64,000 nucleotides of DNA. Source: Segetibacter koreensis DSM 18137. Lineage in GTDB: Bacteria; Bacteroidota; Bacteroidia; Chitinophagales; Chitinophagaceae. Position 1 is the first letter of the stretch, and each line of letters starts with the position of its first letter. Below the pieces are notes generated by a model, which was not told the origin of the DNA, did not search any database, and saw only the letters and a program-made list of their open reading frames with translations. The translations under genes were made by a program, and so were the position numbers. Positions 37,264 to 62,922 of the stretch are shown piece after piece. The stretch covers positions 62,001-126,000 of the forward strand of contig NZ_KB893359.1 in the NCBI RefSeq assembly GCF_000374045.1. The letters are read 5' to 3'.

Positions 37264-37266
37264 ATT

Positions 37267-38541: not shown

Positions 38542-38558
38542 AGTAATCGTTTTGGAGA

Positions 38559-41306: not shown

Positions 41307-41336
41307 AATTTTTTTAATAATTGAGGTTAAGATTTA

Positions 41337-41354
41337 GCTTGTCCCCGGACAAGC
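41337..41354. other. Perfect 8-bp hairpin between rhaT and rhaEW
   Basis: GCTTGTCC-CC-GGACAAGC. No U tract follows on either strand. It may stabilise or process the rhaT-rhaEW transcript or attenuate it; it is too tight to be a typical operator. Confidence 0.4.
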
Positions 41355-41394
41355 ACATTTTATTTTGATACCTATTTGTTTTGTTAATCGGCTG

Positions 41395-42511: not shown

Positions 42512-42557
42512 CTAAAGTAGAAGTATATAAACGCTTCACTATCATGTACTATCATGG
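42512..42557 (-). promoter_or_regulatory. Operator-promoter A, in front of rhaT
   Basis: On the minus strand, half-sites CATGATAG and CATGATAG (within 42538-42557, 10-bp period) are followed after exactly 18 nt by TACTTTAG (42519-42512), a -7-like box with one mismatch to TAnnTTTA. The predicted start point is about 42508, giving a 34-nt leader. It shares operator consensus, orientation and spacing with the sites before susC, the heme-protein gene and the GH78 gene. Confidence 0.75.
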
Positions 42558-42582
42558 TTGTATATGAGGCACAAAAAAAATT

Positions 42583-42614
42583 TTTGAAATAGCATTTTGA
42601 AATATGTACGTTTG
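42583..42614 (+). promoter_or_regulatory. Promoter of the GntR-type regulator gene
   Basis: TTTG (42583-42586), 20 nt, TACGTTTG (42607-42614): a consensus Bacteroidota promoter. The predicted start point, about 42618, leaves only 4 nt to ATG 42623 or 13 nt to ATG 42632. Operator A lies 25 bp upstream of its -33 box. Confidence 0.7.
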
Positions 42615-42622
42615 GTAACTGT

Positions 42623-43663
42623 ATGAATATTATGAATACTTCTCCATTTCGTAAACTTATTTATTTTGATGAGTTTTCCGTTACCGCAAAATATCAGCAA
42701 CTGGCAAACTCAATTATTAAAGCAATTGAAAACAGGAAGCTTCAGGCAGATGATGTGCTTCCCTCTATCAATGAATTAAGTATTGAATTTGAAATATCAA
42801 GAGACACGGCAGAAAAGGGTTATAAGTATTTAAAAAAACTGGGAATAATAGGATCCGTCCCCGGAAAAGGGTATTTTATTAAAACGAGTAATGTAGAACG
42901 AAAGATTAAGATTTTTTTATTGTTTAACAAATTGAGTGCCCATAAGAAGATTATTTATGATGCCCTAGTAAGCGCCCTTGGTGATGCTGCTGCTATAGAT
43001 TTCTATGTTTATAATAATAACTTTACTTTCTTTAAAAAGTTGCTGCAAAACTGTAAGGAAGATTATGATTACTATGTCATCATTCCTCATTTTTTAGACG
43101 GAGAAGAGAACGCCCATATTGTTATTAATACTTTACCCAAAGAAAAACTCATTTTACTTGACAAATTAATTCCGGGAGTAACAGGTGACTACGGAGCTAT
43201 TTATGAAAATTTTGAAAAAGATATTTATACTGCACTTGAAGAAGCCTTGCCTCAGCTAAGCAAGTACCATACTATAAACATTATTTTACCTCACAACACT
43301 TACTACCCTGTCGAAATTATCACCGGCTTAAATAACTTCTGCCAACAATATGCATTTAACTCAAAAGTAGTTCCTAACATAAAAAAAGAAGAAATAAAAA
43401 AAGGCGAAGTTTATATAAATGTAATGGAAGATGATTTAGTGACTTTGGTAGAAAAAATCCTCAGTGAAAATTTAAAAATAGGAGAAGATGTTGGTGTTAT
43501 TTCTTATAATGAAACTGCTTTAAAAAAGATCATTTTAAATGGAATTACAACGATATCAACAGATTTTCAAATGATGGGAGAAAAAACAGCAGAACTTATT
43601 CTTACTAACTCTATTGAACATATCGAAACAAAGTTTTACCTGACGCTGAGAAACTCTTTATAA
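42623..43663 (+). CDS. GntR-family transcriptional regulator with a sugar-binding-like domain, probable rhamnose regulator
   Basis: 346 residues (343 if ATG 42632 is used). The N-terminal winged HTH (about 20-85) is GntR type: YQQLANSIIKAIENRKLQADDVLPSINELSIEFEISRDTAEKGYKYLKKLGII, with the wing GSVPGKGYFI. The rest resembles a periplasmic-binding-protein-like effector domain (IKIFLLFNKLSAHKKIIYDAL, then VGVISYNETALKKIILNGITTIS), as in LacI-type sensors. Divergent position next to rhaT suggests it senses rhamnose and controls the locus. Whether it binds the tandem CAKGAYAG sites is unproven, since GntR dimers usually bind palindromes. Confidence 0.85.
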   Translation: MNIMNTSPFRKLIYFDEFSVTAKYQQLANSIIKAIENRKLQADDVLPSINELSIEFEISRDTAEKGYKYLKKLGIIGSVPGKGYFIKTSNVERKIKIFLLFNKLSAHKKIIYDALVSALGDAAAIDFYVYNNNFTFFKKLLQNCKEDYDYYVIIPHFLDGEENAHIVINTLPKEKLILLDKLIPGVTGDYGAIYENFEKDIYTALEEALPQLSKYHTINIILPHNTYYPVEIITGLNNFCQQYAFNSKVVPNIKKEEIKKGEVYINVMEDDLVTLVEKILSENLKIGEDVGVISYNETALKKIILNGITTISTDFQMMGEKTAELILTNSIEHIETKFYLTLRNSL

Positions 43664-43884
43664 TAATTATTGACCAATAACCTAAAAATTCTATTATAAA
43701 AAATTGCACCTCATTTTTTAAAATTAGGTTCTGTTTGCTCTTACTGTCCACCTATTGAGAAATCTCACTGCTTCAACGATTTTTAAATAAGATCATCAAA
43801 AAATGCTATTTTCTTTATAATAAGCATCCCAACGATTTTTAAAATTACCCCCTTTCGTTGGGATGCTTTGTGGTACTTAAACTT
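43664..43884. terminator. Convergent intergenic region with a 13-bp hairpin
   Basis: Between the GntR gene (plus) and susD (minus). AAGCATCCCAACG (43822-43834) pairs with CGTTGGGATGCTT (43856-43868), a perfect 13-bp stem with a 21-nt loop. CAACGATTTTTAAA occurs twice (about 43774 and within the loop side at 43831). There is no clear U tract; it probably ends both transcripts. Confidence 0.6.
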
Positions 43885-45660
43885 TTAATACCCCGGCAGT
43901 TCTATCAATTTGTCATTCTTGTTCATTTCGCTCCTGGTGATGGGTAAGAAATATGCTTTATTATCCCATTTTCCAGTCCGAATTACATTTGGGGTGACAG
44001 TAGGAATAGTAGCGGTCGAATGATCTGGATTTAGCTTATAAACAATTTGAACTCCATGAACATCATGATAAGCATCAGGACCTATCATCCACCTTCTAAC
44101 GTCGAAAAATCTTTGATCTTCATATGCCATTTCGATTCGTCTCTCATTACGGTAACGATCCCTTAGTGCTGCGCCTGATTCTGTTACGTCCGGCATAAAT
44201 GCTCTTTTCCTGATCATATTTATATAAGTTCTCGCTTCAGCATCCTGCCCTAACTCAATAGATGCCTCAGCATAATTCAATAGCACTTCACCATACCTGA
44301 TCCAACGAAGGGTTAAATCCTGATAGGACTTTTGAATATCGGTCGTCTTACTTAAGTATTTAAGCATAGTGGCACCACATTCATTACCATTCCATGAATT
44401 AGCTATGCTATTTCGGGTATCAAGACCATACACAGGGTACATTTGATTTTTAGCATTATCCCATTTTTGCCAAGTACCAAATTGTCCTACTCCTATGGGA
44501 TCATAAATAGTTAAATCAGCGGGACGAGGCCTGTATTTGTTACCTTCAAAGAGTACGGTTGCATAAAATCGCGAATCCCGATTACTATACGGCTGAGCCG
44601 CTTCTGCAGGATTATTCCTGCTAAATTTGCTACCATCAGCCATCTCATAAGCATCGACTAATTCATTAATAGCCCCTACTCCCGCATTACCATACCAGCC
44701 ATTGGGGGCCAAAACCCAGCCATTATAACCACCCCCTGTTGAAGCTGAGCTATATTTAACGAAAATATCTTCTACACTTCGTGTTGATGTAAACAGATCT
44801 CCATAATTCTGGGTAGCTTCCGCTGCAGAAGCAGGGTTCGGCTTGTATAAACTATACACTCCCAAATCAATTACAGCTTTAGCAGCATCTTTAGCAGCTT
44901 GCCATCGAGCCATAGGATCACCATCGGTATAACCTAATAATTCCGGATGAGCAAAGCCGTGGACTACGCTAGCGTTTTTATTTGGATTATGTAGATCGCT
45001 GGCAGCATAAAGCAAAACTCTTGATTTTAGAGCTAGCGCAGCCCCTTTAGTAGCACGCCCGTCGTTATCTCCACTCTGAGTTATTGGTAATAAGTTGGCA
45101 GCTGAATCTAAATCACTTACAACAAATTTTATGCAATCAGCATAAGAACTTTGGGCTATCTTAAAATTATCTTCCAATCCATAGACATTGGTAATAATAG
45201 GCACGCCTCCGTGGTAGCAAGTTAAACGAAAATACAAGTAAGCTCTGAGAAAATGAACTTCTCCAATCATTCTATCTTTTAAAGCTACACCATCAATTTT
45301 GCTAGTGTCAAACGAAGATTTTGATATGTTTTCGAGCGCAACATTGCAGTGCCTGATAGCCCTATACGATGCACTCCAATTACCATATTCCCCGTCATCC
45401 TGAGTAATAACCATGTTATTAAAATTCAGGCCGTCTGCATCCCTGCTTCTGGATTCGTCGACATTTCCTGCATTCATAGCTACACCTGCGGGAAGTTCAT
45501 TATAAATTCCATTAATAAATGTTGCAGTCAACGCAGGATCTCCCCACTCGTCTGAACTTGAAAATTCGGTGAGCGATTTTTTGTTAAGGAAATCTTTACT
45601 GCACGAAGTAATGACGGAAGCCAATAAAAATATCCGACATATAATTACTAAATTTTTCAT
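43885..45660 (-). CDS. susD: SusD/RagB-family outer-membrane lipoprotein
   Basis: 591 residues with a lipoprotein signal: the lipobox VITSC has the lipidated Cys20, followed by SKDF. SusD proteins are TPR-based surface lids that capture glycans for the SusC channel. Family elements are visible: WSASYRAIRHCNVALENI, LRAYLYFRLTCYHGGVP (typical RAY/LYF), GRATKGAALALKSRVLLYAASD, and YAEASIELGQ late in the sequence. It follows susC by 13 bp. Together with promoter B it forms the outer-membrane uptake part of the rhamnoside locus. Confidence 0.93.
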   Translation of the reverse strand: MKNLVIICRIFLLASVITSCSKDFLNKKSLTEFSSSDEWGDPALTATFINGIYNELPAGVAMNAGNVDESRSRDADGLNFNNMVITQDDGEYGNWSASYRAIRHCNVALENISKSSFDTSKIDGVALKDRMIGEVHFLRAYLYFRLTCYHGGVPIITNVYGLEDNFKIAQSSYADCIKFVVSDLDSAANLLPITQSGDNDGRATKGAALALKSRVLLYAASDLHNPNKNASVVHGFAHPELLGYTDGDPMARWQAAKDAAKAVIDLGVYSLYKPNPASAAEATQNYGDLFTSTRSVEDIFVKYSSASTGGGYNGWVLAPNGWYGNAGVGAINELVDAYEMADGSKFSRNNPAEAAQPYSNRDSRFYATVLFEGNKYRPRPADLTIYDPIGVGQFGTWQKWDNAKNQMYPVYGLDTRNSIANSWNGNECGATMLKYLSKTTDIQKSYQDLTLRWIRYGEVLLNYAEASIELGQDAEARTYINMIRKRAFMPDVTESGAALRDRYRNERRIEMAYEDQRFFDVRRWMIGPDAYHDVHGVQIVYKLNPDHSTATIPTVTPNVIRTGKWDNKAYFLPITRSEMNKNDKLIELPGY

Positions 45661-45673
45661 TCAATTAAATTTT

Positions 45674-48600
45674 TTAAAAGGTTACGGTTAAACCAAAAGA
45701 AAGTGTTTTATTAAGTGGATAAACCTGGCTATTAACCCAGATAGAACCAGGGGCGGTATTAGGCGACTCCGGATCGAAATCTTTCAAACCAGTCAACGTA
45801 AAAATATTTAATCCACTCGCGTATAATCTGAAAGCATCTATTCCAAACCTTTTTATAAACTTTTGTGGAAGATCATATCCCAATTCAATGTTTTTAACCC
45901 TCAAATAATTGCTGTTTCTCACCCAGTAGGTATTATTTGGCCATCCATCTGCCATCCAATATTGCGACGTACGGTTCCAAGCCCTCGGTTTTGTTGCATC
46001 AATATTAGTGGGAGTCCAACGTCCTATTACATTATCCATTCTGAAGTTACCGGCTTCGCCTGAAAACTCTGTATAAGCTCTTTCAGCACCTGCAGCACCT
46101 TGTACCAGCACTGACAAATCAAAGTTTTTATACCCTACATTCAAGTTCAAACCACCTGTAAAAGTTGGTATATCTGTCTTATCGTCTCTAACCAAATCTA
46201 AACCATTAATTGCCCCATCATTATTAACATCTTTAAATATAATGTCTCCGGGCTGCGCACCATCCCAATGAGGATATTTATTAACTGCTGCCTGGTCTCT
46301 GAATATGCCAATTGCCTGATAATACAAATGAGCACTCATTGGATGACCTGTCGTTTTTTGGTATTCCGGAATACCTGGTGTTTCATCCCAGTCCAATATC
46401 TTGTTTTTAGCATATGAACCGTTTACAGAAACCGAATAAGTAAGACTACCAGCTTTGTTATGATACCCTACTTCATATTCGAAACCCTTGTTTGAAACCT
46501 TCGCAAAATTTTGCTGAGGCAAACTTAAACCGGCTGAACCCGGAACCGAAGCATTTTTCCACCATAAGATATTAGAACGAACGTTATAAAAATAATCAGC
46601 TGAAACGCTAACTTTTCCGTGTAATAATTGCGCATCAAAACCAATGTTGGATTGATTTGCTACTTCCCATGTAATATTTGGATTGGGTGTACGCACCTGG
46701 CTGGTGGTATTGGCAACCACGTTTTGATTAAAAGTATAAGAACCGTTATAGCCAAAATTAGCAGCAAACTGGTAGGGAGCAATACGATCATTACCTGTTT
46801 GTCCCCAGGATCCTCTTATTTTCATCTCGCTAATAAAAGGAATGCTCCTTTTCCAGAAATTCTCTTCAGATATTCTCCAGCCTAATGAAATACCGGGAAA
46901 GAAACCATACTGAGATCCGGGAGGAAAAACATAGGAGCCGTCCTCCCTAAAAACAAATTCGGCAAGATATTTATTTTCAAAATCGTAGTTCAAACGTCCG
47001 AAATAACTTAAACGGGCATTGTTTAAATACGGGTCTGGTGCCCCTCCATTATCTTTTAACAAATTACCACCTGCAAACATCTCATCTATTGCTGTGGTCG
47101 TAAAATATCTACGGAAAGCGTTAAAGTTCATTGAAGCACCGGAAATCCGTTCAGTACCAAGTAATACCTTAATATCATGCTTGTTGGCTATACTCGTTTG
47201 ATAATTGATTAATCCCCTAAGCGTTGCACTATTACCATCCGTTAAGCCCTGAGTTAATCTTGCGTCACTTACTCCTCTCTGTCCCTTTACCAGAACAGGA
47301 GTATTATTTGCATCACGGGTTACACCATCCCATGTATAAACATACCAGGGTTTTTCAAACTGTTTATGATTGAGAATGTTTTTATCATAACTTACTGTTC
47401 CACTCACAGACAGACCCCTTATCCAGGGAATCGTAACATCTAGCTTGACATTGCTCTGAACGGAATAAGTTTTATCTAAATAGTAGCCGGTAGCATTGGT
47501 AGTAGTAAGAACAGGATTTTGCCCGTACTCGACATCAGGTCCTGGCAGACCATTAGGCCAGTAAGCAGGTAAATATGGGTATTGCCGGTTAAGAGCCCAC
47601 CAAGTATTTAATGCATCTCCGCCAATTCCAGTGCCGGGATAATGTGCATTTTGCTGACCTCCAGATACATCTACATTTAAATGAATATCTTTAGAAATGG
47701 CTGCATCAAGGTTACTTCTGAAATTAACCTGCGAATAGTAATTAGCACTATTATAAAAGATGCCATCCTGGTAAGTAGTTCCGCCAGAAACAAAATATTT
47801 TACACGGTCGGAGCCACCACTTAGTGAAACATTAGCATAACGTTGTACAGACCAGGGTTTAATTACAGCTTTAAACCAATCGGTATTTGGATGTCCCCAA
47901 GGATCAGAGCCATCGGCGTATTTTTTAATATCTTCTGCAGAATACTTTTCCGGCTGACCCTGGTACAACTTTATTTCGTTGATCATTTGAGCATAACTTG
48001 CCGCATCCGCCATTTTGGGAAGTACCGTAGGTTTATTCCATCCTTGGCGAACATTAACTTCAATTTTTGGCGCACCAGATTTCCCTCGTTTTGTTGTAAC
48101 TAATATAACACCATTTGCTGCTTCAGACCCATAGATGGCTGCCGACGCATCTTTTAAAACAGTAATAGACTCAATAGTAGCTGGATCTATACGATCTAAA
48201 CCACGATTTTGAATACCGTCAACTATAACAAGTGGTGAGTTATCACCTAAAGTGTTTACACCTCTGATCCTAAGGAGGGAACCGTCGTTACCCGGTTCGC
48301 CAGTCCTCGAAACAACTACCAGTCCTGGTAAACGACCCCCAAGGGAATTTGAAATATTTGGAGCCGGCGATTTTCTTATATCATTTCCACTTACTGTAGC
48401 AACAGAGCCGGTGAGTGTAGCTTTCTTTTGAGTACCATATCCTACTACTACAACCTCTCCCAAAGCTGTATTAGCTGGCGTAAGAGTGACATTAATATGC
48501 GATTTGTTATTAACAGGTATTTCCTGGGTAAGGTAACCGACAAAAGATGTTACTAACGTACTGGAGCCACTTGGTACACTCAGTGAAAAATTACCTTTTG

Positions 48601-48784
48601 CATCGGTGCTGGTACCACCCGTTCCACCTTTCACCTGTACAGTTACGCCTCCTAATCCAGCTCCGGTCTCATCGGTAACTTTTCCCGAAACTCGCATAGT
48701 TTGCGACCAGGTGGAGGAGGCGGAAAATAATAGAAAAAGGAGTATCAAGATGTACTGCATCTTTTTAAGAATGATCTCTTTCAT
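45674..48784 (-). CDS. susC: SusC/RagA-family TonB-dependent outer-membrane transporter
   Basis: 1036 residues from ATG 48784; a TTG two codons earlier is less likely. Signal peptide with LILLFLLFSASSTWSQ. Next come a CarboxypepD_reg-like domain (about 30-105), the TonB-box/linker LGEVVVVGYGTQKK with the SusC signature, the plug (SGNDIRKSPAPNISNSLGGRLPGL; LRIRGVNTLGDNSPLVIVDGI) and a 22-strand barrel ending in SFGLTVTF. It moves oligosaccharides across the outer membrane with TonB energy. Its promoter (48899-48944) carries operator B, which links it to the rhamnose genes. Confidence 0.95.
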   Translation of the reverse strand: MKEIILKKMQYILILLFLLFSASSTWSQTMRVSGKVTDETGAGLGGVTVQVKGGTGGTSTDAKGNFSLSVPSGSSTLVTSFVGYLTQEIPVNNKSHINVTLTPANTALGEVVVVGYGTQKKATLTGSVATVSGNDIRKSPAPNISNSLGGRLPGLVVVSRTGEPGNDGSLLRIRGVNTLGDNSPLVIVDGIQNRGLDRIDPATIESITVLKDASAAIYGSEAANGVILVTTKRGKSGAPKIEVNVRQGWNKPTVLPKMADAASYAQMINEIKLYQGQPEKYSAEDIKKYADGSDPWGHPNTDWFKAVIKPWSVQRYANVSLSGGSDRVKYFVSGGTTYQDGIFYNSANYYSQVNFRSNLDAAISKDIHLNVDVSGGQQNAHYPGTGIGGDALNTWWALNRQYPYLPAYWPNGLPGPDVEYGQNPVLTTTNATGYYLDKTYSVQSNVKLDVTIPWIRGLSVSGTVSYDKNILNHKQFEKPWYVYTWDGVTRDANNTPVLVKGQRGVSDARLTQGLTDGNSATLRGLINYQTSIANKHDIKVLLGTERISGASMNFNAFRRYFTTTAIDEMFAGGNLLKDNGGAPDPYLNNARLSYFGRLNYDFENKYLAEFVFREDGSYVFPPGSQYGFFPGISLGWRISEENFWKRSIPFISEMKIRGSWGQTGNDRIAPYQFAANFGYNGSYTFNQNVVANTTSQVRTPNPNITWEVANQSNIGFDAQLLHGKVSVSADYFYNVRSNILWWKNASVPGSAGLSLPQQNFAKVSNKGFEYEVGYHNKAGSLTYSVSVNGSYAKNKILDWDETPGIPEYQKTTGHPMSAHLYYQAIGIFRDQAAVNKYPHWDGAQPGDIIFKDVNNDGAINGLDLVRDDKTDIPTFTGGLNLNVGYKNFDLSVLVQGAAGAERAYTEFSGEAGNFRMDNVIGRWTPTNIDATKPRAWNRTSQYWMADGWPNNTYWVRNSNYLRVKNIELGYDLPQKFIKRFGIDAFRLYASGLNIFTLTGLKDFDPESPNTAPGSIWVNSQVYPLNKTLSFGLTVTF

Positions 48785-49202
48785 AAGCAATCGTTATTTT
48801 TTAAAATTTAGAAATTGAAAAGGGGTAAAAAATGTATTAGAATTCTACCTTCAGAGTGGTTGGAAATTCGACGGAAAAAGCACTTGTTAATTGTTCTATA
48901 AAATTAGAACTGATAATTTTGATCACTGTCCTGTTCTGTCATGCTCTCATCTTTTTATATAAAGAAAATTTAAATCAGTATTTTGTCTAAAGGAAACTAT
49001 TTTACATAGAAATAACCGTAGGTAAAAAAATACCAATTTTTATATATCACACTTTGTCCAAAACAATTAAAGGCAAAGGCGGAATGTAGATCTCCTTATG
49101 CTTGATTAAGACAAGATCATTTTGTGATCAATTCTTACTTGAAACGTAAGAGTAAAAACTTTAATCGAAGGAACAAGTTTATTCAACTTATTCGAAACAT
49201 AG
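48785..49202. other. Leader and promoter region of susC
   Basis: 418 bp between DUF1080 and susC, both minus. It holds operator-promoter B and then a leader of about 111 nt. The remaining 5' part (48960-49202) has no coding signal and no strong terminator for the DUF1080 gene, so some read-through from the upstream operon is possible. Confidence 0.5.
48899..48944 (-). promoter_or_regulatory. Operator-promoter B, in front of susC
   Basis: On the minus strand, half-sites CATGACAG and CAGGACAG (within 48925-48944, 10-bp period) are followed after exactly 18 nt by TAATTTTA (48906-48899). The predicted start point is about 48895. Same layout as sites A, C and D. Confidence 0.8.
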
Positions 49203-49976
49203 TTATAATTGCTTCAACCGAATGTTTCGATATTCAACTTTCATCGGTGGGCCAACATGTACTTGCACACCTAACAGTCCCTCTGATTTTCCATTTACTG
49301 TATCATTGTCCGTTACATCACTCATTAAAATGCCATTAATATAATGCTGTAAGTGATTGCCTTTTATAACGAGGTGACAAGTATTCCAATTCTCAGCGTG
49401 TATTTTAGTCTGTAATTCATCGGAACTACCTAATGAGCCGGTCACAGTTCTTTCTGTCCAGGCGTTGTTCTTAACATGATCCTTTAAAAAATCAGGAGAA
49501 TCTCCAGGAGGATTTACTGTTACTTTTTCTCCTCTGTACGCTAATGTGGTCCTTTGGCGTTCTTCGTAGTTTTGCCCTGTGTAGTGATTTGCGCCGTCAA
49601 TATCGGCCTGGTATCCCTTTAAAGCATGAGGCACATCCGTTAACTGAACACTCCGATAATTAATACCGCTATTTCCAGCTTTTGTTATTTTAAATTCAAG
49701 AGTCAGTTCAAAGTCAGCCGGCTTGCCGCCCTGCCATATGATAAATGAATTAGTTTTTAAAAGTGTAGAAGGTGTAATCTCTCCAACTAAATTTCCATTT
49801 TCTACCCGCCAATATGTTGGATCGCCTTCCCAGCCCTTAAGAGTTTTACCGTCAAAAATTTGTACAAAACCATTCTTATCTGCCTGATTTTGCGCTGAAG
49901 TTCTGCAGCTGCTGACCACTAACACCATCAGCATTATTCCCATTTGAACGAATTTAGAACTCACTTTTTTTAGCAT
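49203..49976 (-). CDS. DUF1080 (3-keto-disaccharide hydrolase-type) lipoprotein
   Basis: About 257 residues from ATG 49976; an upstream start at 50033 would put 19 residues before the signal. The signal is of lipoprotein type (lipobox LVVSSC, residues about 19-24), so it is exported and probably periplasmic or on a membrane. The concanavalin-like DUF1080 fold is seen in FVQIFDGKTLKGWEGDPTYWRVENGNLVGE, then ADFELTLEFKI and NSGINYRSV. PF06439 proteins are now known to act on 3-keto glycosides. It is the last gene of the six-gene oxidative operon that starts at 57473. Confidence 0.85.
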   Translation of the reverse strand: MLKKVSSKFVQMGIMLMVLVVSSCRTSAQNQADKNGFVQIFDGKTLKGWEGDPTYWRVENGNLVGEITPSTLLKTNSFIIWQGGKPADFELTLEFKITKAGNSGINYRSVQLTDVPHALKGYQADIDGANHYTGQNYEERQRTTLAYRGEKVTVNPPGDSPDFLKDHVKNNAWTERTVTGSLGSSDELQTKIHAENWNTCHLVIKGNHLQHYINGILMSDVTDNDTVNGKSEGLLGVQVHVGPPMKVEYRNIRLKQL

Positions 49977-50035
49977 TATTATTTGTTTTAGCAATATTAA
50001 TTTTATACCTGTAAATGATCCTGTTCCAGACATTT

Positions 50036-51199
50036 TCAGCTTGCAAAATCCTCAACACCTGTTTCTTTCCAACTTTTTGAAGACGCAGAGGTTAAAACTG
50101 CTTCACAAACTTTCTGAGTTTCAAGAGCGTCTTTAAATGTAGGAGCGCATGGCATTCCGGTTTCAAGGCTTTTTAAAAAATCAGCTACCTGGTGAACAAA
50201 AGAATGTTCATAACCAATAGACAATCCCGGTACCCACCATTTGTCCATATATGGTTGATCGCCGTCAGTAACATGAATGGTACGCCAGCCGCGAACGATA
50301 GAATCATCAGCGTGATCAAAATATTCAAGACGGTTAAGATCGTGTAAATCCCACCGTAGCGAAGCATGTTCGCCATTAATTTCAAATGTATATAAAGCTT
50401 TATGTCCCCGTGCATAACGGGTAGATTCGAAAAGGCCGAGAGAACCATTTTCAAAATGACAGTGAAAAATACAGGCATCATCTATACCTACTTTTTGTAC
50501 TTTGCCACTTGCCTGGTGTATCCGTTCTTTTACGAAAGTCTCTGTTACCGCAGAAACATCCACAATTCCCCCATTTAACCACATAGCAGTATCTATACAG
50601 TGAGCAAGCAAATCACCTGTTACACCTGAGCCCGCAGCATCTACATCAAGCCTCCATAAAGCCTCACCACCCTGGGGCAACTCCGGGTTAATTGTCCAGT
50701 CCTGCAAAAAGTTAGCACGGTAATGAAAAACGCGTCCCAATTTGCCTGAGTCGATAATTTGCTTAGCCAAAGTAACTGCGGGAATGCGGCGGTAATTGTA
50801 CCATACGGTATTCTTTACACCTGCCTTTTTTATAGCACCCACCATCTCTTCCGCCTCAGCTAATGTTCTTGCGAGAGGTTTCTCACAGAGAATCATTTTA
50901 CCCGCTTCTGCGGCAGCAATAGCAATTTCTGCATGCATATTATTAGGGGCGCAAATATCAACGGCGTCAATATCATCACGGGCGATAACTTTTTTCCAAT
51001 CTGTTTCGATAGACTCATAACCCCATTGATCAGCAAATGATCTGACTTTGTCTTCACTACGCGAACAAACAGCTTTTAATACCGGACGATACTCCAGTTC
51101 CGGAAAAAAATCACCAACGCGTTTATAACCGTTGGTATGAGTGCGACCCATAAAACCGCATCCGATTAAACCAATTCTTAATTCTTTCTTATTTCTCAT
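50036..51199 (-). CDS. Gfo/Idh/MocA-family sugar oxidoreductase
   Basis: 387 residues, NAD(P)-dependent. Rossmann loop [12 protein letters not shown] at about residues 9-20; the EKP motif is in [19 protein letters not shown]; a catalytic-type His/Lys region follows, and [21 protein letters not shown] carries the conserved D-x-x-x-W/H part. No Tat or Sec signal, so it is cytoplasmic. Such enzymes oxidise sugar hydroxyls, often at C3. It lies 59 bp upstream of the DUF1080 gene and 26 bp downstream of the TIM-barrel gene in one operon; a role in 3-keto-sugar formation or reduction is inferred. Confidence 0.9.
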
Positions 51200-51225
51200 A
51201 TTATTTAAGATCTTAACAGTAAGTA

Positions 51226-52287: not shown

Positions 52288-52350
52288 TTCGTTAGATTAT
52301 TTTCAGTGTTTAAAGTATTAGATAACTTTTTTTGAAAAAATACTGATTCA

Positions 52351-53574: not shown

Positions 53575-53593
53575 TTGAAACGATTTTTAACAG

Positions 53594-54661: not shown

Positions 54662-54725
54662 ACTTTATCTCCTTCTTCCTTTAATTAATGATAAAATCCA
54701 TCAAAAGATATTAAAACGCTAACAC

Positions 54726-57473
54726 TTATTTCTTATTTACTGCTAAGGTTTTTTTACCTGAAAAAATAGTATCCTGCGCATTACCTCCGGATTTCAAATA
54801 AGCCAATAAGTCTCTTAACTCTTCAGGATTTAACCTGTTTATCAACCCGGGAAGCATTGGAGATACATCAGATAGTTTTGTCCGCGCTACATCTTTCTTC
54901 AGCACTTCTCTTGTCGTTTGGGGTGAGAAAGGGTTTTGAGAAATAACGTATTTATCATTGTCCTGGCTGATCATTCTACCTACAACCGATCCACCCTCTT
55001 TAAGGTAAAATACGGTAGCTCCATATTGATCTGAAATGGTCTTATTTGGATGGATGATTGCTTCGAGCATATCATTATAAGAAAAACGAGTACCTAACTG
55101 GGTAAGATCAGGACCTGCAACGCCGCCTTCACCTTTCATAGTGTGACATGAAATACACAGTGAAGATGCAAACATTGCTTTTCCGCTTTCGAAATTTCTA
55201 TTTGTAATACCGCTATCAACAACCTTCATAGCTTCCTCTACAGTCCAATTTCTTCCCGGTCCTTTTGGCTGAATGGTTGAGTTAGCAAGGTAGGTACCGT
55301 TTTGACCCACTAAAGAATCACCTGAAACAGTGTTATAGTGAGCAAACTGATCTTTAGGAACATTAGCAAGGGCATTTTTACGAGCCAAATTAACAAAGCC
55401 GATAAAACTGTGGCCTCCCTTATACTCAAATGCGGTGTAGAACCATTTAAAATATTTATCCTGAAGCTCAGGTGTCCATCCTGTTTTAGCCTGGCTTAAT
55501 ACTGTTGCATAGTAAGTCTGCTGTGCAGGAGGAACTTTTGAAAGCATTCCGGCAATATCAAGTCCATATTGAGGATTTCTAAGTATGAGGTCTGAAGATT
55601 GAGTAAGCGTACTTTGATTTGTATTATCGTCTTTTGCTGTGGCAAGTAAATTCATTGTTTTTTCTACAGCCTGAGGTGCGCCAATATAAACGAGAACTTT
55701 ACTTAATTCGCGATTCAGTTCATTTGTTTTTGCAGGGTACTGCGGATTAAGGTATGCAGATACAGCAGCAAGTTCTGCCGCATCAGGCTTACCCATGCGG
55801 GCAAAAATCAGCTCAAAGGCCCTGGCAAGATCAACCTGCTGTGCATCTGAAAGCTTAGAAAAATCAATACTCGTAAGAGCCTTTGTCAACTGGCTTTTTA
55901 CAGCAGGATTCCCGGTGCGTGCAAGGGCAATCGCAGCCTGAGTTAAAATGACGGGATCTTTTTCATTTAAAGCCCTATCCTGCCATTGGTTTACCGGCTG
56001 ATTTTCGATAGCAACACGTGCAGCAAAACGGATAAATCTATCGCTATTATTTAAATAGGGCCATGCAAAATCAACTGCTCCGGCTTTCGCTCCGCCATGG
56101 TATGATTCAAGTTTTCTACGGATATTTACCTGGTCATTAGGTTCTGTAGCTGCCAAAGCTTGAGTATTATCAGCATTGTCTTTATAATAAACACGGTAAA
56201 GATCAGATTCGAGTTTGCGGCCGCCAGTTAAAAAATACATAGCGCCATCAGGACCTATTACGCCATCGGTAAGAGGCAAAGGTGAACCAGAAACAAACTC
56301 TTCTCCTTTTGCTTTATATGAAGCTCCTTCACGGTCAAGGTTTATTGCATAAATAATTCCAAAGCTCCAGTCAAAAGCAAACAAAGAGTTTTTGTATTTG
56401 TCAGGAAAATGAGCAGTTTCTCCATTGAAAAAACTGGTAGGAGACCCCTGGCCAACATTTACAACAGGCGGCAGGTTGTCCGGGTAAGCCGGTGACCATT
56501 TTTCTGTACCCGGGCGCCATCCAAATTCACTTCCACTTGTTACATGACATATTCTTGTAGGGCGATACCAAGGAAGTCCGAAATCCCATTCCATATCTGA
56601 GTCATAAGCAAACATTTCGCCTTCGCGGTTAAAAGTCAGATCGAAAGGATTACGGAAACCTGAACTGATCAGTTCCCAATTATTTCCTGTTGAGTCCATA
56701 TGAGCTATCCAGCCTCCATGATTTCCCACCGTGTTATCATGACCGTTAGGGTCCCTGATTAATGGCATTAGGTTATCGATCTGGCCATAAGACGCACTTC
56801 TGTAAGAATCCATTTTAGGGATATCAGTAAAGTTTCCCGCTATTATATAGATGGATTTTTTATCAGGAGACAAAACAGGGTTATGTGGTCCATGCTCGCC
56901 CTCTCCTTTTAAGGCTTTGATCAAAGTGATCTTATCATATTGGTCATCATGGTTCATATCCTGCAGACGGTAAAGGCCACTTCTTCTTTCGAGCGTAGTA
57001 TCGCCTTCGTCGTTTACCATTACATAAAGGCTGTTAAAAGCATACAGTAAACCATGTGCAAAACCGATTTTCATTTTGGCGGTATCACCTGCTACCTGTA
57101 TATCGAGTTTTTGAACCTGCACTTTAGCTGTGTTGGTATCTGAGCCTACAGGAGGTATGGTAATACGATACAAACCGCCGTACTGATCACACGTTATCAT
57201 TCTCCCCTTGTCGTCAAAAGTCATAGCTACCCAAGAGCCCTGGTCATGCTCGCCAGGACTATATAAATGATCGGCATGAAAACCTGATGGCAGTTTTAAC
57301 TTAGCAATTTTAGGATCCTTTGAAACTTCTGTATCAGTATTTTCATTTTTAGCATTGTTGCATGAAAAGGAAATAAGGACAGAAATTGTCACGGCTAACA
57401 TCACCGCTTGTTTTTTCCCCATAAAAAAACTTTGTAAAGATCTTGTTCCCATAGCAATTCGTTTTCTACTCAT
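54726..57473 (-). CDS. Membrane-bound heme-binding beta-propeller lipoprotein (PVC-type CxxCH protein)
   Basis: 915 residues. The signal is a lipoprotein type: MLAVTISVLISFSC with a lipobox Cys near residue 38. A start at ATG 57422 (residue 18) is also possible. Domains in order: a glucose/sorbosone-dehydrogenase-like six-bladed propeller (about 50-430), a helical HEAT-type middle (about 450-720), and a C-terminal c-type cytochrome with CISCH at about 773-777 and its distal Met in VSPMLPGL. Such fusions occur in Planctomycetota/Verrucomicrobiota and in some Bacteroidota. It probably carries electrons from a sugar oxidation at the periplasmic face. First gene of the operon of promoter C. Confidence 0.85.
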   Translation of the reverse strand: MSRKRIAMGTRSLQSFFMGKKQAVMLAVTISVLISFSCNNAKNENTDTEVSKDPKIAKLKLPSGFHADHLYSPGEHDQGSWVAMTFDDKGRMITCDQYGGLYRITIPPVGSDTNTAKVQVQKLDIQVAGDTAKMKIGFAHGLLYAFNSLYVMVNDEGDTTLERRSGLYRLQDMNHDDQYDKITLIKALKGEGEHGPHNPVLSPDKKSIYIIAGNFTDIPKMDSYRSASYGQIDNLMPLIRDPNGHDNTVGNHGGWIAHMDSTGNNWELISSGFRNPFDLTFNREGEMFAYDSDMEWDFGLPWYRPTRICHVTSGSEFGWRPGTEKWSPAYPDNLPPVVNVGQGSPTSFFNGETAHFPDKYKNSLFAFDWSFGIIYAINLDREGASYKAKGEEFVSGSPLPLTDGVIGPDGAMYFLTGGRKLESDLYRVYYKDNADNTQALAATEPNDQVNIRRKLESYHGGAKAGAVDFAWPYLNNSDRFIRFAARVAIENQPVNQWQDRALNEKDPVILTQAAIALARTGNPAVKSQLTKALTSIDFSKLSDAQQVDLARAFELIFARMGKPDAAELAAVSAYLNPQYPAKTNELNRELSKVLVYIGAPQAVEKTMNLLATAKDDNTNQSTLTQSSDLILRNPQYGLDIAGMLSKVPPAQQTYYATVLSQAKTGWTPELQDKYFKWFYTAFEYKGGHSFIGFVNLARKNALANVPKDQFAHYNTVSGDSLVGQNGTYLANSTIQPKGPGRNWTVEEAMKVVDSGITNRNFESGKAMFASSLCISCHTMKGEGGVAGPDLTQLGTRFSYNDMLEAIIHPNKTISDQYGATVFYLKEGGSVVGRMISQDNDKYVISQNPFSPQTTREVLKKDVARTKLSDVSPMLPGLINRLNPEELRDLLAYLKSGGNAQDTIFSGKKTLAVNKK

Positions 57474-58293
57474 AGTATTCTTTTTAGTTGATTTTCTTCA
57501 AATCTCTGTAAAATCCAACCCTTCAATGCTGTTGTTATGCAAGCAGTGAAATGGGGATGTAAATTGAAAGTTGCGCAGGTAATAATGTCATAGGATAATT
57601 ATAATCCCATTGTTTTCTTAATAGCAGTTGCCCTATTGAGAATCATATTATTTCCAAAGTAATTTTAACTATACAGAAATTTGAAATATTTGCTGTTTTT
57701 TAAGTTCCATTTATTCAATAAACAATTAAAAGTATAGCGTTTTAGCTAAAGGTTTTTGTAGGTGACTATTAACAAGTTGCCAGGCATATATAAATTTAAA
57801 TCTTGCCTGTTTTAAGCAATTACAGTAACCTATTATTCATTATCGTTCCAGAAGATGTGCACAAAAAATGCGAAAGCAAATTAAATACGGAACTCTTTTC
57901 AAATGAGATCGCAACATATTTAATTGAGGACGTCAATTTTTTCATACAGCAATCGTTTTAAATTTTTATAAACTTATATACTCCGTTTTGTTCAGCTGTC
58001 CTGAACTATCCTGCTATAGCTGCTCAACATCTCACGAATATAAAGGTTGAAATAACATAAGTATGCATACAACTATTACTAACATGTATAATTCCTTTAT
58101 ACTTCTTATCCAATTTATTACGAATTTAAACCTTGTTTTAATTAAGTAATTTTTGATTACGATTTTAAGCAGGTTAGCAGCGGTCTTTCAAACTCGCCAT
58201 CTACACACAGCAACACCCTTTCCGTTGCTAATTTAAAAAGATCAATTGATTTAATAATCAAACAATTTCAATCATAGAAAGATTCTTCTAAGA
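57474..58293. other. Long leader and promoter region before the heme-protein operon
   Basis: 820 bp without a supported gene. Promoter C lies at 57969-58014, and from its start point (about 57965) the transcript would have a leader of about 490 nt before ATG 57473. The upstream part (58030-58293) holds a weak 6-bp hairpin (about 58205-58225) that may help end the FG-GAP transcript. No small reading frame stands out. Confidence 0.5.
57969..58014 (-). promoter_or_regulatory. Operator-promoter C, in front of the heme-protein operon
   Basis: On the minus strand, half-sites CAGGATAG and CAGGACAG (within 57995-58014, 10-bp period) are followed after exactly 18 nt by TAAGTTTA (57976-57969). Both half-sites share CAGG, which supports a direct rather than an inverted repeat. 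Same layout as A, B and D. Confidence 0.8.
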
Positions 58294-59478
58294 TTATTCA
58301 TACCCCTTATTATAAAATATATACAGGCCGTCTTTACCTGCTACAACAATATCCTTTCTTCCAGATCCTGTTAAGTCACTCACGCCAAAATATATACCTA
58401 ATCCCTTGCCTTCTCCAAGTACCCCGTAGCTAACAACCTGCTTTGTAAAGGAGTCGCCGTTCCACTTATAATAATAAATGCCAACCGGATCATTTCCGCC
58501 CGGATCGTTTCCATTATGAGCACGATAGCGCTTTCCTGTAACCAATTCTTCCTTTCCATCTCCGTCAAGGTCAAGCCATTGCATGGCATGAAATTGAGAA
58601 TTATAAGGATCGATCATATGTTTTACCCACGATGTCGTTTTCGTCTTTTTATCCTTTTTTTGTTCATACCAGTCTAACCCATAGTCATGCGCCTGTCCTA
58701 CAATGATATCGGAGATACCATCTTTATTTATATCAGCAACAATTATTGGAACACTGGATGTACCAAGAGTGAAGTCGGGGTGAAAAGTCCAGGTATCTGT
58801 GAAAACGTTTTTAGGTGCTTCAAGCCAACCTGTATTAAGAATAAAATCGCCCCGGCCATCGCCATTTATATCACCAAAGCCTAAACCATGACCTTGTTTC
58901 TCATTCCTGATTTTATAATGTTCAAAAGCATCGGCTCCTCTTCTCCCGCTATCCTTTTTAAGTCGGTAAATAACTAAAGGATCATTTGGCGTGTTAGGTA
59001 TTATTTCTGGTATACCATCTCCGTCAACATCCCATGCACGGGTAGTTTCAACATTACCTGGCTCTGCTATTACATGTTCCTTCCATTCATTATCATTACC
59101 CGGGTTTTCTTTCCAGATCAGCGTTTTGCCAAACCAACCGCCTGTTATAAAATCAAGACGGCCGTCGCCATTAATATCAAGAGGTATAGTAGAAAAATCA
59201 TCCCAGTATTCACCGTATTGTTTTCCGGCGCCGATGTAATGTCTCTTTACATACCCTGGGCCCTCGTACCAGAACGATCCTGAAACTATGTCAGGAATTT
59301 TATCATTGTTCACATCAAACACTTCAGCCGATTCGAAACTTTCAGAAGCAATTTGTCTTTTAATAAACTTTAAAGGCTTAATTACATTTTTATGAACAGC
59401 ATTTTCAGGCTGTGCAAAACCGCTAATAACTATAAACGAAAAAACAAAAAAAATCATTAAAAATCTATATCTACTCAT
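58294..59478 (-). CDS. FG-GAP/VCBS repeat protein, exported
   Basis: 394 residues with a signal peptide (FLMIFFVFSFIVISGFAQ). At least six blades carry FG-GAP calcium loops of DxNxDGxxD type (DVNNDKIPD, DINGDGRLD, DVDGDGIPE, DINGDGRGD, DINKDGISD, DLDGDGKEE), so a seven-bladed calcium-binding propeller in the periplasm or at the cell surface is likely. It may bind a sugar or act as a lyase-type propeller. It follows the GH78 gene by 133 bp on the same strand and probably shares promoter D. Confidence 0.82.
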   Translation of the reverse strand: MSRYRFLMIFFVFSFIVISGFAQPENAVHKNVIKPLKFIKRQIASESFESAEVFDVNNDKIPDIVSGSFWYEGPGYVKRHYIGAGKQYGEYWDDFSTIPLDINGDGRLDFITGGWFGKTLIWKENPGNDNEWKEHVIAEPGNVETTRAWDVDGDGIPEIIPNTPNDPLVIYRLKKDSGRRGADAFEHYKIRNEKQGHGLGFGDINGDGRGDFILNTGWLEAPKNVFTDTWTFHPDFTLGTSSVPIIVADINKDGISDIIVGQAHDYGLDWYEQKKDKKTKTTSWVKHMIDPYNSQFHAMQWLDLDGDGKEELVTGKRYRAHNGNDPGGNDPVGIYYYKWNGDSFTKQVVSYGVLGEGKGLGIYFGVSDLTGSGRKDIVVAGKDGLYIFYNKGYE

Positions 59479-59611
59479 GAATAAAGAATTTTATACTTAA
59501 TATAATACCAAGGAAATCCACTCTGTTTCACGGTTATCCTGCGTGTTCTGGTATCGTAAGTTTAATACCTCAATACATTTGTATTGATGAGCATAAACAT
59601 TACGTCAACGC

Positions 59612-62590
59612 CTACTGCTTCTCGCCTTCGAAAGTCATTCCTAAGGCTCCCATTTTTACTTTTGTTACCTTCCCCTGAGCATCACGCATAAATGTAGTTA
59701 TTGAACCATCCGGACTGGTAAATTGATCTTTTGCATCTTTCACAGGTTCCAATTCGCCATTGTTGTTAAAGACAACTAACATCAATTTTCCATTTTGCAT
59801 TTTCACTTCAATCATTTTCACCATGCCGCCTTCCACTTTATATTTACCAACATATTCACCCAGGTTTATCGCTGCATTTGTATCTGCAGATTTTGTTGCG
59901 CTGAAATGATAATCCCCCGAACCCAATTCTAGTACTACGTACCCATCTTCAGCACCTGACATTCGTATACCTTTAAAAGAAAGTGCTCCACCGCTTTCAG
60001 TTATTGCGTTAGCATCCTTAGCAGGCACGTAGACTGTTGCTACAGTGTTCACAGGTATCTCAACATCCATTAGTATTCGATCATTCTCCACCTTCCATCC
60101 GCTACTTAGCTGGCCATAATAGGTTTGCAGTGTGGCTGACGCATTAGTAAAACCTCCTCCCAGATGCGGTTTTACTTTGATGTGTTTATAGCCGACTCCA
60201 TCTTCATACGTATCTAACCCGACCATTGTGCGGTACATCCAATCGCCAATAGCGCCATAAGAATAGTGATTATAAGAATTCATAGAAGGTGTTTCAAATG
60301 TACTGTCCGGCTTAATGCCGTCCCATCTTTCCCAAATAGTCGTTGCCCCCATCTTTACAGGATATAGCCAGGAAGGATATGTTTGCTGCAGAAGTAATTT
60401 ATATGCAACATCATTATAACCAAAACGTGTTAATACATGACAGAGATAGGGTGTGCCAAGAAAGCCGGTAGTTAAATGATTGCCGTAACTTTTTACATTA
60501 TCGGCCAACCTTTTTGCAGCTTGTTGCCTTAATGTTTCCGGCAGCATATCAAAATTTAATGCAAGTACATAAGCTGTTTGGGTGCCCGAAACGAGCCTGC
60601 CATTGGGGGTCAGGTATTCCTTTAAATACGCGTCTTTAATTTTTTTTAGTAAATCCGAATAACTGTCCTCATCTTCTTTTTTACCCAATACTTTAGCAGC
60701 ATTAATTAATAATTGTGTCGAATGTGCATAAAAGCATTGAGCAATTAAATATTTATCTGTAACAGCTGCTCTTCCATCATTATCATCTTCCGGACGGTAA
60801 AATAGCCAATCACCAAAATGAAACCCGGTGTTCCACAGATTGTTATTTGTATTTTTTCTGATGCTTTCTACATAAGCTTTCATGCTGCTGTACTGGTCTT
60901 CAAGTATCTTTTTATCTCCGTAAGCGAGATACATGTTCCAGGGAACTATGGTTGCTACATCTGCCCATCCCGCACTGTTAATTGCGGGGCCTAAAACATT
61001 TGGAACAACAAAAGGAACAACTCCGTTCTGTTGTTCTGCCGCCACATCTTTCATCCATTTAGCAAAAAAGTCATTTACATTCATATTGAAAGAGGCAGTG
61101 CGCGAAAAAACCTGGGCATCGCCTGTCCAGCCAAGCCTTTCATCACGTTGAGGGCAATCGGTAGGTACGTCTAAGAAGTTGCCCTTCTGACCCCATTGAA
61201 TATTATGCTGTAATTGATTAACGAGTGCATTAGAAGAAGTAAAAGTTCCTGTAGGCTTCATATCTGAGTATAAGGCAACAGCAGTAAAGTTCTCGGGTTT
61301 CAATTCACCCGGGTAGCCTTCAACTTTTACAAACTGGAACCCATGCCAGGTAAAATGAGGTTCAAATGTTTCTTCTGTACCACCTTTTAAAATATATTGA
61401 TCCTGAGATTTTGCTGCACGTAAATTAGCGGTATAAAAATTTCCTTGCTTGTCTAAAACTTCAGCATGTGAAATTGTGATTTTATCGCCGGCCTTTCCTT
61501 TTACTTTTAAAACTACCCAGCCCACAAGATTTTGTCCGAAGTCAATTACTTTTTCTCCTCGCGGTGTAGTAAATATTCTTACAGGTTTAAATGTTTCATG
61601 CTTTCTAACCGGTTCGTTATAAGTTGCCAATAAAACATTCATAGGATGTTTAACGACTTTAACTCCGCTCCATTTTGTATCGTTATAACCTGGCAATGAC
61701 CAGCCCGTTTTATTCATGCCTGCGTTAATGGTTTCACCGTTGTAAATTTCGGAGTAACGAATAGCGCCGGTTGATGATTTCCATGTATCATCTGAAGCAA
61801 TAGTTCCTGTCGAGCCATCGCTGTAAGTAATGTTAAGCTGAAAAAGTAAGGCGATATCTTTTCCATATACATTTATGTTGTTGGTAAAACCTATAACGCC
61901 CCTGTACCAGCCGCTGCCAAGTGTAACTGCAATAGCGTTTGACCCATTTTTCACAAGGTCGGTCACGTCGTAAGTCTGGTATTGTAAACGCTTTTTGTAA
62001 GCTGTCCAACCGGGTGTCAGGTAAGCATCTCCGATACGTTTTCCATTGATCTGCGCTTCATATAAACCGTGTGAAGTAATATAAGCAACTGCTGATATAA
62101 TTTTTTTATTGGCGGCAAATTCTTTTCTAAACATTGGGCTGGGACGCATTATAGTATCTTCAGCATAGCCAGGCTCTATCCATTGGGCTTTCCAGTCTGT
62201 AGTATCAAATAACGCCGTTTGCCAAAACGCGGCATCACTCCATTCAGAAGACTTCTTATTATTATCCCACACCCTTACCTGCCAGTAATATCTGCTCCCA
62301 CTTTTAAGAGCATTACCTTTATAAGCTACTTGCACCGATTGGTCTGATTCGACTTTACCTGAACTCCAGTCCTCACCCTTCATATTTGGCGAGGATGATA
62401 CTTTTATTTCGTAAGCTGTTTGTTTTACATTTCTGTCATTTGATAAAAGCTGCCAGCTAAGCCGCGGTTCTCGCACATCAAGACCAACAGGGTTTGTGCG
62501 GTTTTCAGTAAGCAGATTTTGAACCTTGACCTGTGAAAAAGAAATAACTATTGATAAATTAGTTAGTAAGAAAAACAGCGTTTTTTTCAA
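59612..62590 (-). CDS. GH78 alpha-L-rhamnosidase with a C-terminal extension
   Basis: 992 residues starting with TTG at 62590 (an in-frame stop lies 5 codons upstream, and no ATG is closer). Signal peptide (FFLLTNLSIVISFSQ), then the GH78 beta-sandwich domains, an (alpha/alpha)6 catalytic barrel and a C-terminal sandwich. The general acid is probably Glu484 in CPQRDERLGWTGDAQ, and the base Glu754 in TTIWERWDG. It releases terminal alpha-L-rhamnose from glycosides or polysaccharides in the periplasm. The last 90 residues (LGEYVGKYKVEGG and following) resemble a DUF3471-like small domain, an unusual addition. Promoter D lies 280 nt upstream. Confidence 0.93.
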   Translation of the reverse strand: MKKTLFFLLTNLSIVISFSQVKVQNLLTENRTNPVGLDVREPRLSWQLLSNDRNVKQTAYEIKVSSSPNMKGEDWSSGKVESDQSVQVAYKGNALKSGSRYYWQVRVWDNNKKSSEWSDAAFWQTALFDTTDWKAQWIEPGYAEDTIMRPSPMFRKEFAANKKIISAVAYITSHGLYEAQINGKRIGDAYLTPGWTAYKKRLQYQTYDVTDLVKNGSNAIAVTLGSGWYRGVIGFTNNINVYGKDIALLFQLNITYSDGSTGTIASDDTWKSSTGAIRYSEIYNGETINAGMNKTGWSLPGYNDTKWSGVKVVKHPMNVLLATYNEPVRKHETFKPVRIFTTPRGEKVIDFGQNLVGWVVLKVKGKAGDKITISHAEVLDKQGNFYTANLRAAKSQDQYILKGGTEETFEPHFTWHGFQFVKVEGYPGELKPENFTAVALYSDMKPTGTFTSSNALVNQLQHNIQWGQKGNFLDVPTDCPQRDERLGWTGDAQVFSRTASFNMNVNDFFAKWMKDVAAEQQNGVVPFVVPNVLGPAINSAGWADVATIVPWNMYLAYGDKKILEDQYSSMKAYVESIRKNTNNNLWNTGFHFGDWLFYRPEDDNDGRAAVTDKYLIAQCFYAHSTQLLINAAKVLGKKEDEDSYSDLLKKIKDAYLKEYLTPNGRLVSGTQTAYVLALNFDMLPETLRQQAAKRLADNVKSYGNHLTTGFLGTPYLCHVLTRFGYNDVAYKLLLQQTYPSWLYPVKMGATTIWERWDGIKPDSTFETPSMNSYNHYSYGAIGDWMYRTMVGLDTYEDGVGYKHIKVKPHLGGGFTNASATLQTYYGQLSSGWKVENDRILMDVEIPVNTVATVYVPAKDANAITESGGALSFKGIRMSGAEDGYVVLELGSGDYHFSATKSADTNAAINLGEYVGKYKVEGGMVKMIEVKMQNGKLMLVVFNNNGELEPVKDAKDQFTSPDGSITTFMRDAQGKVTKVKMGALGMTFEGEKQ

Positions 62591-62876
62591 TGTTGCAAAT
62601 TTTTAAAGAATACAAGTTCAGTTTCTTTAATTAGCCTTTTATAAATAAATAATTTCAAGTACAAACCCGGTTAAACCCTTAATACCTAATTATACGTGAA
62701 ACAAAAAAAGTGCATTGTATAACAATAAACGACGACGTAGTGTGTGAGGAATAATTATAAATATTCATAAGCAGGCATTTATTAATCGTTAGTGGTAAAG
62801 GGTACAATTTAAATGTTTCCGTTTGTCTAAAAAAATTACCGTGACTAATCATAGTCAGTAAATTTTCTTAAGAAGA

Positions 62877-62922
62877 TAAAGCTAGCAGACATCTGTATAA
62901 CAACTGTTATGAACTGTCATGG
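62877..62922 (-). promoter_or_regulatory. Operator-promoter D, in front of the GH78 gene
   Basis: On the minus strand, half-sites CATGACAG and CATAACAG (within 62903-62922, 10-bp period) are followed after exactly 18 nt by TAGCTTTA (62884-62877). The predicted start is about 62873, leaving a leader of about 283 nt. Same layout as A, B and C. Confidence 0.8.

Follow-up and report, generated by a model that had tools for sequence, protein, structure and literature searches.

The AraR protein of Bacillus subtilis joins a GntR-type winged helix-turn-helix (wHTH) domain to a LacI-type effector domain (PMC4494728, PMC4218819). It is described as controlling genes for the use of sugars and plant polysaccharides, which it represses from palindromic operators, with one or two of them at each promoter (PMC4494728, PMC4218819, PMC4666351). 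Here we analyze a protein with the same pair of domains, called RhaR below, from the Bacteroidota member Segetibacter koreensis DSM 18137. Its gene (42623..43663, plus strand; product of 346 residues) lies in a stretch of 64,000 nucleotides of contig NZ_KB893359.1 (the window, whose numbering is used throughout), within a rhamnose/rhamnoside locus (35872-62590) of the 6.1-Mb genome. RhaR is likely the regulator of four gene units of this locus, each preceded by the same tandem site. Unlike AraR operators, the predicted RhaR sites are direct repeats at a single fixed distance from the -7 box, and they probably serve activation.

Other described regulators resemble this system in part. The MocR activators GabR, TauR and PdxR have a GntR-type wHTH, bind direct repeats, are often encoded divergently from their target and are reported to exert positive control (PMC5320631). 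Their repeats lie two or three helical turns apart and their second domain is aminotransferase-like, whereas RhaR has a LacI-type domain and the direct repeats found here are spaced by one turn. In Bacteroides, rhamnose catabolism is controlled by another RhaR (BT3768), an AraC-family protein described as a positive regulator, with a direct-repeat periodicity of 21 bp and a single target operon (PMC3870299, PMC3878776); in contrast, the regulator analyzed here is of the GntR/LacI type, with 10-bp periodicity and a putative regulon of several units that includes SusCD and glycosidases. The DeoR-family RhaR of Rhizobiales, Chloroflexales and other groups recognizes imperfect direct repeats with a periodicity of 10-11 bp, as here, but is described as a repressor in Rhizobium (PMC3870299). 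The S. koreensis protein matched neither a DeoR HTH or sensor domain nor the AraC HTH (HTH_18) in Pfam at an E value of 0.001. FucR and ManR of Bacteroides are GntR-family regulators of Bacteroidota for other sugars (PMC3878776). The rhamnose regulators treated in PMC3870299 and PMC3878776 are of the AraC, DeoR or LacI types, and among the papers listed in searches of part of the literature we found no description of this motif or of a rhamnose regulator of the GntR/LacI type in Bacteroidota. One-turn spacing combined with an AraR-like domain pair and direct repeats of the MocR kind was likewise not met in these searches.

Results

Four promoters share a tandem site at a constant distance from the -7 box

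The site consists of two head-to-tail 8-bp half-sites of the pattern CAKGAYAG, 10 bp apart from start to start. By pattern scanning and reading of the promoters, we located it on the minus strand before rhaT (CATGATAG-TA-CATGATAG, 42539..42556), before susC/susD (CATGACAG-AA-CAGGACAG, 48926..48943), before an operon headed by a heme-protein gene (CAGGATAG-TT-CAGGACAG, 57996..58013) and, with one mismatch, before the gene of a GH78 alpha-L-rhamnosidase (CATGACAG-TT-CATAACAG, 62904..62921). A first-pass annotation, made from the sequence alone, had proposed these four promoters with their 10-bp periodicity and identical orientation to the gene, and our reading bears it out on both counts. It had also given a constant spacer of 18 nucleotides (nt). 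The constancy is real but the value is not, as 19 nt separate the site from the T of TA in all four promoters (N19), 18 being found in a minority of relatives. The -7 boxes, likewise read on the minus strand, are TACTTTAG for rhaT (42512..42519, a position also supported by the cross-genome alignment), TAATTTTA for susC (48899..48906), TAAGTTTA for the heme-protein operon (57969..57976) and TAGCTTTA for GH78 (62877..62884). Three of these are TAnnTTTA boxes, and that of rhaT is a variant of the pattern.

Allowing up to three mismatches, we found 10 matches in the window; 100 shuffled sequences averaged 2.31 and never exceeded 7. The whole genome holds 18 matches with up to two mismatches, compared with 13 for a reversed-pattern control, which argues that most of the two-mismatch matches are background. 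The matches with no or one mismatch, however, are exactly the four sites of the window. All four have TAnnTT at N19, whereas none of the 14 two-mismatch sites has it at N18 or N19. The first-pass annotation had named many random hits with the same spacing as the outcome that would speak against its proposal, and the absence of boxes behind the 14 weaker sites means that this outcome was not seen.

Domain architecture of the candidate regulator

RhaR is encoded divergently from rhaT, and its gene is single-copy, with one match in the genome at an E value of 0.001. Its N-terminal region matches a GntR wHTH at residues ~23-86 (PF00392, 3.2e-9, above the cut-off), where the AlphaFold model (38 sequences, pLDDT 88.6) places helices and a wing. 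The C-terminal match to Peripla_BP_3 is below the Pfam threshold (5.7e-5; 23.7 bits versus a cut-off of 26.5). Foldseek searches with the model placed LacI-family repressors at the top and the AraR effector domain (3tb6) at rank 10; the C-terminal fold is of the LacI type, not the aminotransferase-like domain of MocR proteins. The best NCBIfam model for the HTH is the MocR-like PdxR, which matches no further than the HTH and, at 48.6 bits, stays far below its cut-off of 320. The predicted architecture is thus AraR-like, with the nearest curated HTH model coming from a subfamily known for direct repeats. Most of the listed homologues keep the recognition-helix stretch, SRDTAEKGY or a variant of it.

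The likely promoter of the regulator gene, TTTG-N20-TACGTTTG (42583..42614, plus strand, by promoter reading), does not overlap the rhaT site, and two congeneric loci (L080 and L081; G, C and L numbers are our handles for genomes, contigs and loci) have TTTG-N19-TACGTTTG. Although near-perfect here, it was dropped as a conserved feature, since the TT(T)G-N18-22 form occurs in only 7 of 79 regulator loci.

Spacing and orientation are conserved upstream of rhaT in relatives

We collected 96 distinct rhaT upstream regions from loci fetched by homology to the regulator, so that the site plays no part in the selection. The rhaT genes were at least 50% identical, with the gene start matched and 200 upstream bases taken, and duplicates over the last 120 bases were removed. 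The loci represent many, not all, of the regulator matches (mainly at least 57% identity), and related strains were counted separately, so that the counts are not independent. A sense-direction site with at most two mismatches lies within 200 bases in 87 of the 96 regions. TAnnTT follows at 19 nt in 69 of these, at 18 in 16 and at neither distance in two; the next commonest offset, 12, has 12 cases. The background frequency of TAnnTT is 1.2% per position. Antisense sites with no or one mismatch are absent from the 96 regions, and five occur with two mismatches. The putative operator thus lies in a single orientation and at a fixed distance over the -33/-35 place in 85 of 87 cases, the arrangement expected for class II activation. 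The constant phasing that the first-pass annotation took as the mark of an activator is supported by these counts.

The same protein might instead act from the same sites as a repressor that covers the -33 region without sugar, excludes RNA polymerase and is released by rhamnose. AraR, which has the same GntR-HTH and LacI-sensor architecture, is described as a repressor released by arabinose (PMC4218819, PMC4666351), and a protein on the twin site would physically block the -33 region. However, a repressor could sit anywhere over the promoter, which is at odds with a distance of N19 or N18 for 85 of the 87 sites and with the lack of any reverse site with no or one mismatch among 96 regions. 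The operators of B. subtilis AraR are palindromic, whereas the twin sites, CAKGAYRG-NN-CAKGAYRG, are direct repeats. Near-invariant spacing in the sense orientation is predicted for an activator touching RNA polymerase and is hard to explain for a repressor, and we regard repression as unlikely.

The site co-occurs with the regulator

Among 294 genomes of the family, the exact pattern occurs 89 times in 57 genomes, compared with 4 matches for the reversed-pattern control. The regulator (E up to 1e-60) is found in 135 of the 294 genomes and in 55 of the 57 with exact sites (Fisher p 1e-19, uncorrected for kinship). Together with the site at N18 or N19 in 85 of 96 rhaT regions, this co-occurrence supports one operator-promoter design for the four units, as first proposed.

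We then grouped 39 further rhaT regions (~400 upstream bases) by regulator status, absence being judged in draft genomes. Where a regulator more than 50% identical is present, 13 of 17 regions have the site (at most two mismatches) with N18/19. In 15 of these 17, rhaT lies at least 6 kb from the regulator gene or on another contig, and the site is present in 12, one of the 15 regions being only 144 bases long; in the remaining two (G065 and G247), rhaT adjoins the regulator gene, with the site in one and not in the other. Where the homologue is weaker (38-45% identity in the listed cases), 4 of 7 regions have the site, and where no regulator matches at E 1e-60, 4 of 15 do, three of the four genomes with a site being 60-89% complete. 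With the 144-base region excluded, comparing 13 of 16 with 4 of 15 gives p 0.004; restricting the latter group to its 12 genomes of at least 90% completeness, one of which has the site, gives p 0.0003. Four of these regions (L397, L416, L419 and L420) have the site at a distance of about 200-270 bases, farther from the gene than the usual 60-90.

These groups bear on the possibility that another regulator binds the sites and that the GntR/LacI protein merely travels with the locus. Sites in genomes with a weaker homologue or no match would suit that explanation. It fits poorly with the regulator in 55 of 57 exact-site genomes, with the site being kept in 12 of 15 regions where rhaT lies away from the regulator gene, and with the conserved recognition-helix stretch. 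We consider it quite improbable that a different protein is responsible.

Architecture of the aligned promoters

We aligned on the site 72 N19 promoters, picked for having TAnnTT at that place. The site and the -7 box are conserved, and the spacer and flanks are near background information. At the eighth position of the box, 72% of these promoters have A and 23% have G. Across relatives, the consensus is a CATGAYRG-TR-CATGAYRG direct repeat; the CATG versions of the half-site are partly self-complementary and the CAGG versions are not. A third half-site was rejected as a general feature, as scores 10, 11, 20 or 21 bp upstream resemble those at a control offset.

Longer half-site arrays were seen only in L231/L057 and L122/L047. 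In L231 (63-130; G177:C6, ~180262-180329), seven CAKGAYRG-NN half-sites follow each other in perfect 10-bp register upstream of a 590-residue open reading frame (ORF) whose first 420 residues match nothing in Pfam or NCBIfam. TAnnTT is not found at N18/19 after the last copy. The array possibly reflects cooperative multi-copy binding and hints that the regulator could line up as more than a dimer.

The twin site could in principle be the upstream element of an alternative sigma factor, such as the ECF-type protein encoded at 34310-34873, rather than an operator. Such a gene does adjoin the locus, and the site lies at a promoter-like distance from the box. The downstream box, however, is of the housekeeping TAnnTTT type, and a one-turn tandem repeat, with up to seven half-sites in one array, suits a dimeric or oligomeric binder, which makes a sigma factor element highly improbable. 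Finally, chance similarity or plain descent without function deserves hardly any credence: although the relatives share ancestry, divergence has left their spacers and flanks with near-background information, in contrast to the conserved site and box, and 89 exact sites stand against 4 control matches.

Taxonomic breadth and other genes behind the site

Four of five near relatives (G098, G172, G267 and G126, but not G223) have an N19 site before rhaT. Their loci contain 37 occurrences with no or one mismatch, some counted twice, of which 23 have the box at 18 or 19. In congeners G098 and G267, homologues of the heme-protein gene also have a site (0 and 1 mismatch) with N19. A 72-kb region of G223 (C3:261705-333471) holds 10 twin-site matches with no or one mismatch, and its rhaT (324233-325324) has none within two mismatches.

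At the class level, the regulator (E up to 1e-50) was found in 23 of 295 genomes. In a set of 80 named loci, this geometry stands before rhaT not only in Chitinophagaceae but also in Pedobacter, Mucilaginibacter, Hufsiella and Adhaeribacter; Cesiribacter has an exact and a one-mismatch site with N19 in its locus, neither of them before rhaT. These genera outside Chitinophagaceae belong to the orders Sphingobacteriales and Cytophagales. In two loci (L254 and L255), one-mismatch sites are followed by the box at 20. Among 30 loci scanned for other GntR/LacI paralogues, L245, L254 and L255 showed rhamnose-linked one-turn repeats, and the remaining matches were scattered and chance-like.

The collected loci contain 87 distinct exact CAKGAYAG sites, 62 of them with TAnnTT at N18/19. 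We ran 20 downstream ORFs (each up to 420 codons) against Pfam at an E value of 1e-6, and five had no match. Sites with the box at 18/19 precede a GH106 rhamnosidase, two rhamnogalacturonan lyases (family 11 type), a pectic acid lyase, GH28, GH115 and GH2 proteins, a GDSL esterase and a two-component-propeller protein; a FecR protein lies more than 800 bases behind one such site. Sites without the box at that distance precede another GH106 protein, a GDSL protein, a cytochrome-type protein and proteins of the Gfo/Idh type. Further sites stand before homologues of GH78 and SusC.

Discussion

Comparative genomics strongly supports the view that the four units share a single regulator and a single promoter geometry, and we consider it probable that RhaR is a class II-like activator acting through the twin sites. 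In Flavobacterium psychrophilum, a TAnnTTTG box is reported at -12 to -5 (PMC9723704). On this ruler, the 18-bp site covers approximately -49 to -32, with its centre near -40.5. Such a centre is the position of class II activators. A fixed distance, a single orientation and no other conserved upstream element fit an activator that replaces the -33 contact.

In the mechanism that we propose, RhaR would bind the two head-to-tail half-sites one helical turn apart and occupy the place of the -33 element in a class II-like manner. Its LacI-type domain would bind the sugar signal, and sugar-bound RhaR would recruit or position the housekeeping RNA polymerase at promoters that lack a -33 TTTG and whose -7 box often ends in A rather than G. 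One sugar-sensing protein would probably switch on all four gene sets, with joint control of uptake (susCD, rhaT), rhamnoside cleavage (GH78), rhamnose catabolism (rhaT operon) and a probable 3-keto-glycoside pathway (heme-protein operon). Solely from the gene content, we infer that rhamnose or a close product is the signal; the identity of the binding protein, activation and the contact with RNA polymerase we infer from the geometry and the co-occurrence described above.

The absence of TTTG at the -33 place, from which the first-pass annotation suggested that the site may replace the -33 contact, holds as an observation for all four promoters but is weak as an argument. In 730 noncoding upstream stretches from this locus and related ones we counted 143 TAnnTTTG boxes, of which just 6 show TTTG at N19-20, and we rejected its absence as too weak a sign of activation.

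Several observations weigh against RhaR being the activator behind these sites. Members of the GntR family are known best for repressing from palindromic sites, and AraR, with its matching pair of domains, is one example in the literature cited here. In nine of the 96 rhaT regions, the 200 upstream bases hold no site with at most two mismatches. One of the nine (L135) has a perfect N19 site farther out, at 442 bases, and two have sites of 3-4 mismatches with N19, but six show nothing convincing in up to 700 bases, including that of congener G223 (L088), whose regulator is 69% identical. Conversely, G016 (L384), a genome 98% complete, has a perfect twin site with N19 before rhaT and no regulator match at E 1e-20. 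No box is found at 18 or 19 behind 14 of the 37 occurrences in near relatives, nor behind 25 of the 87 exact sites in the collected loci; the latter include members of the seven-copy array and probably chance matches. In addition, 48 of the 87 exact sites precede ORFs that match no gene of the window.

A broader claim, that an AraR-type protein has turned into an obligatory activator across at least three Bacteroidota orders, binding head to tail over one turn and replacing the -33 element, is one we put forward only tentatively and hold to be somewhat doubtful. If it is true, the module can be planted before any gene for pectin or rhamnoside degradation. Bacteroidota promoters differ from those of E. 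coli, and the arrangement offers an activator-promoter geometry for this phylum that can be tested by experiment. As a search rule, the twin site followed by TAnnTT at N18/19 would group genes for rhamnose and rhamnogalacturonan into a single regulon across many degraders of plant matter, and it would join a heme-protein/3-keto-glycoside type operon of unknown role to rhamnoside use.

Gene content of the four units

All four units lie on the minus strand, and genes were assigned by Pfam, with NCBIfam in addition for the third. The rhaT operon (35872..42474), with membership taken from gene order and strand, comprises five genes: rhaT (41395-42474) and those for a RhaEW-like fused class II aldolase/short-chain dehydrogenase (39186-41306), RhaM (38559-38873), a rhamnose isomerase-like protein (37267-38541) and an FGGY kinase (35872-37263). 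The second unit (43885..48790) consists of susC (45674-48790) and susD (43885-45660), and the fourth (58294..62590) of the genes for the GH78 alpha-L-rhamnosidase (59612-62590) and an FG-GAP protein (58294-59478).

The third unit (49203..57473), a presumed operon of six genes, encodes a heme-binding protein, a DUF4432 protein, a protein without Pfam match, a sugar isomerase-like protein, a Gfo/Idh/MocA oxidoreductase and a 3-keto-disaccharide hydrolase. The heme-binding protein scores above the cut-off of TIGR02603 and below that of the PVC-type model TIGR02604 (NCBIfam); the nearest model for the Gfo/Idh protein is levoglucosan dehydrogenase, with a score below the cut-off. Placed under a rhamnose site, this unit is a candidate for an oxidative (3-keto) route for rhamnosides.

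Scanning for E. coli-type promoters and terminators gave counts near or below those of shuffled sequences and was not used for any conclusion. An Rfam search of positions 34000-64000 gave no match. The ECF-type sigma factor gene (34310-34873), assigned by a domain match, adjoins the rhamnose locus. The leader of the heme-protein gene (57474-57995) is long, with ~520 nt from the twin site to the start codon, and its minus-strand ORFs reach 41 residues at most; in congener G098, the twin site lies 386 nt from the start of the heme-protein ORF.

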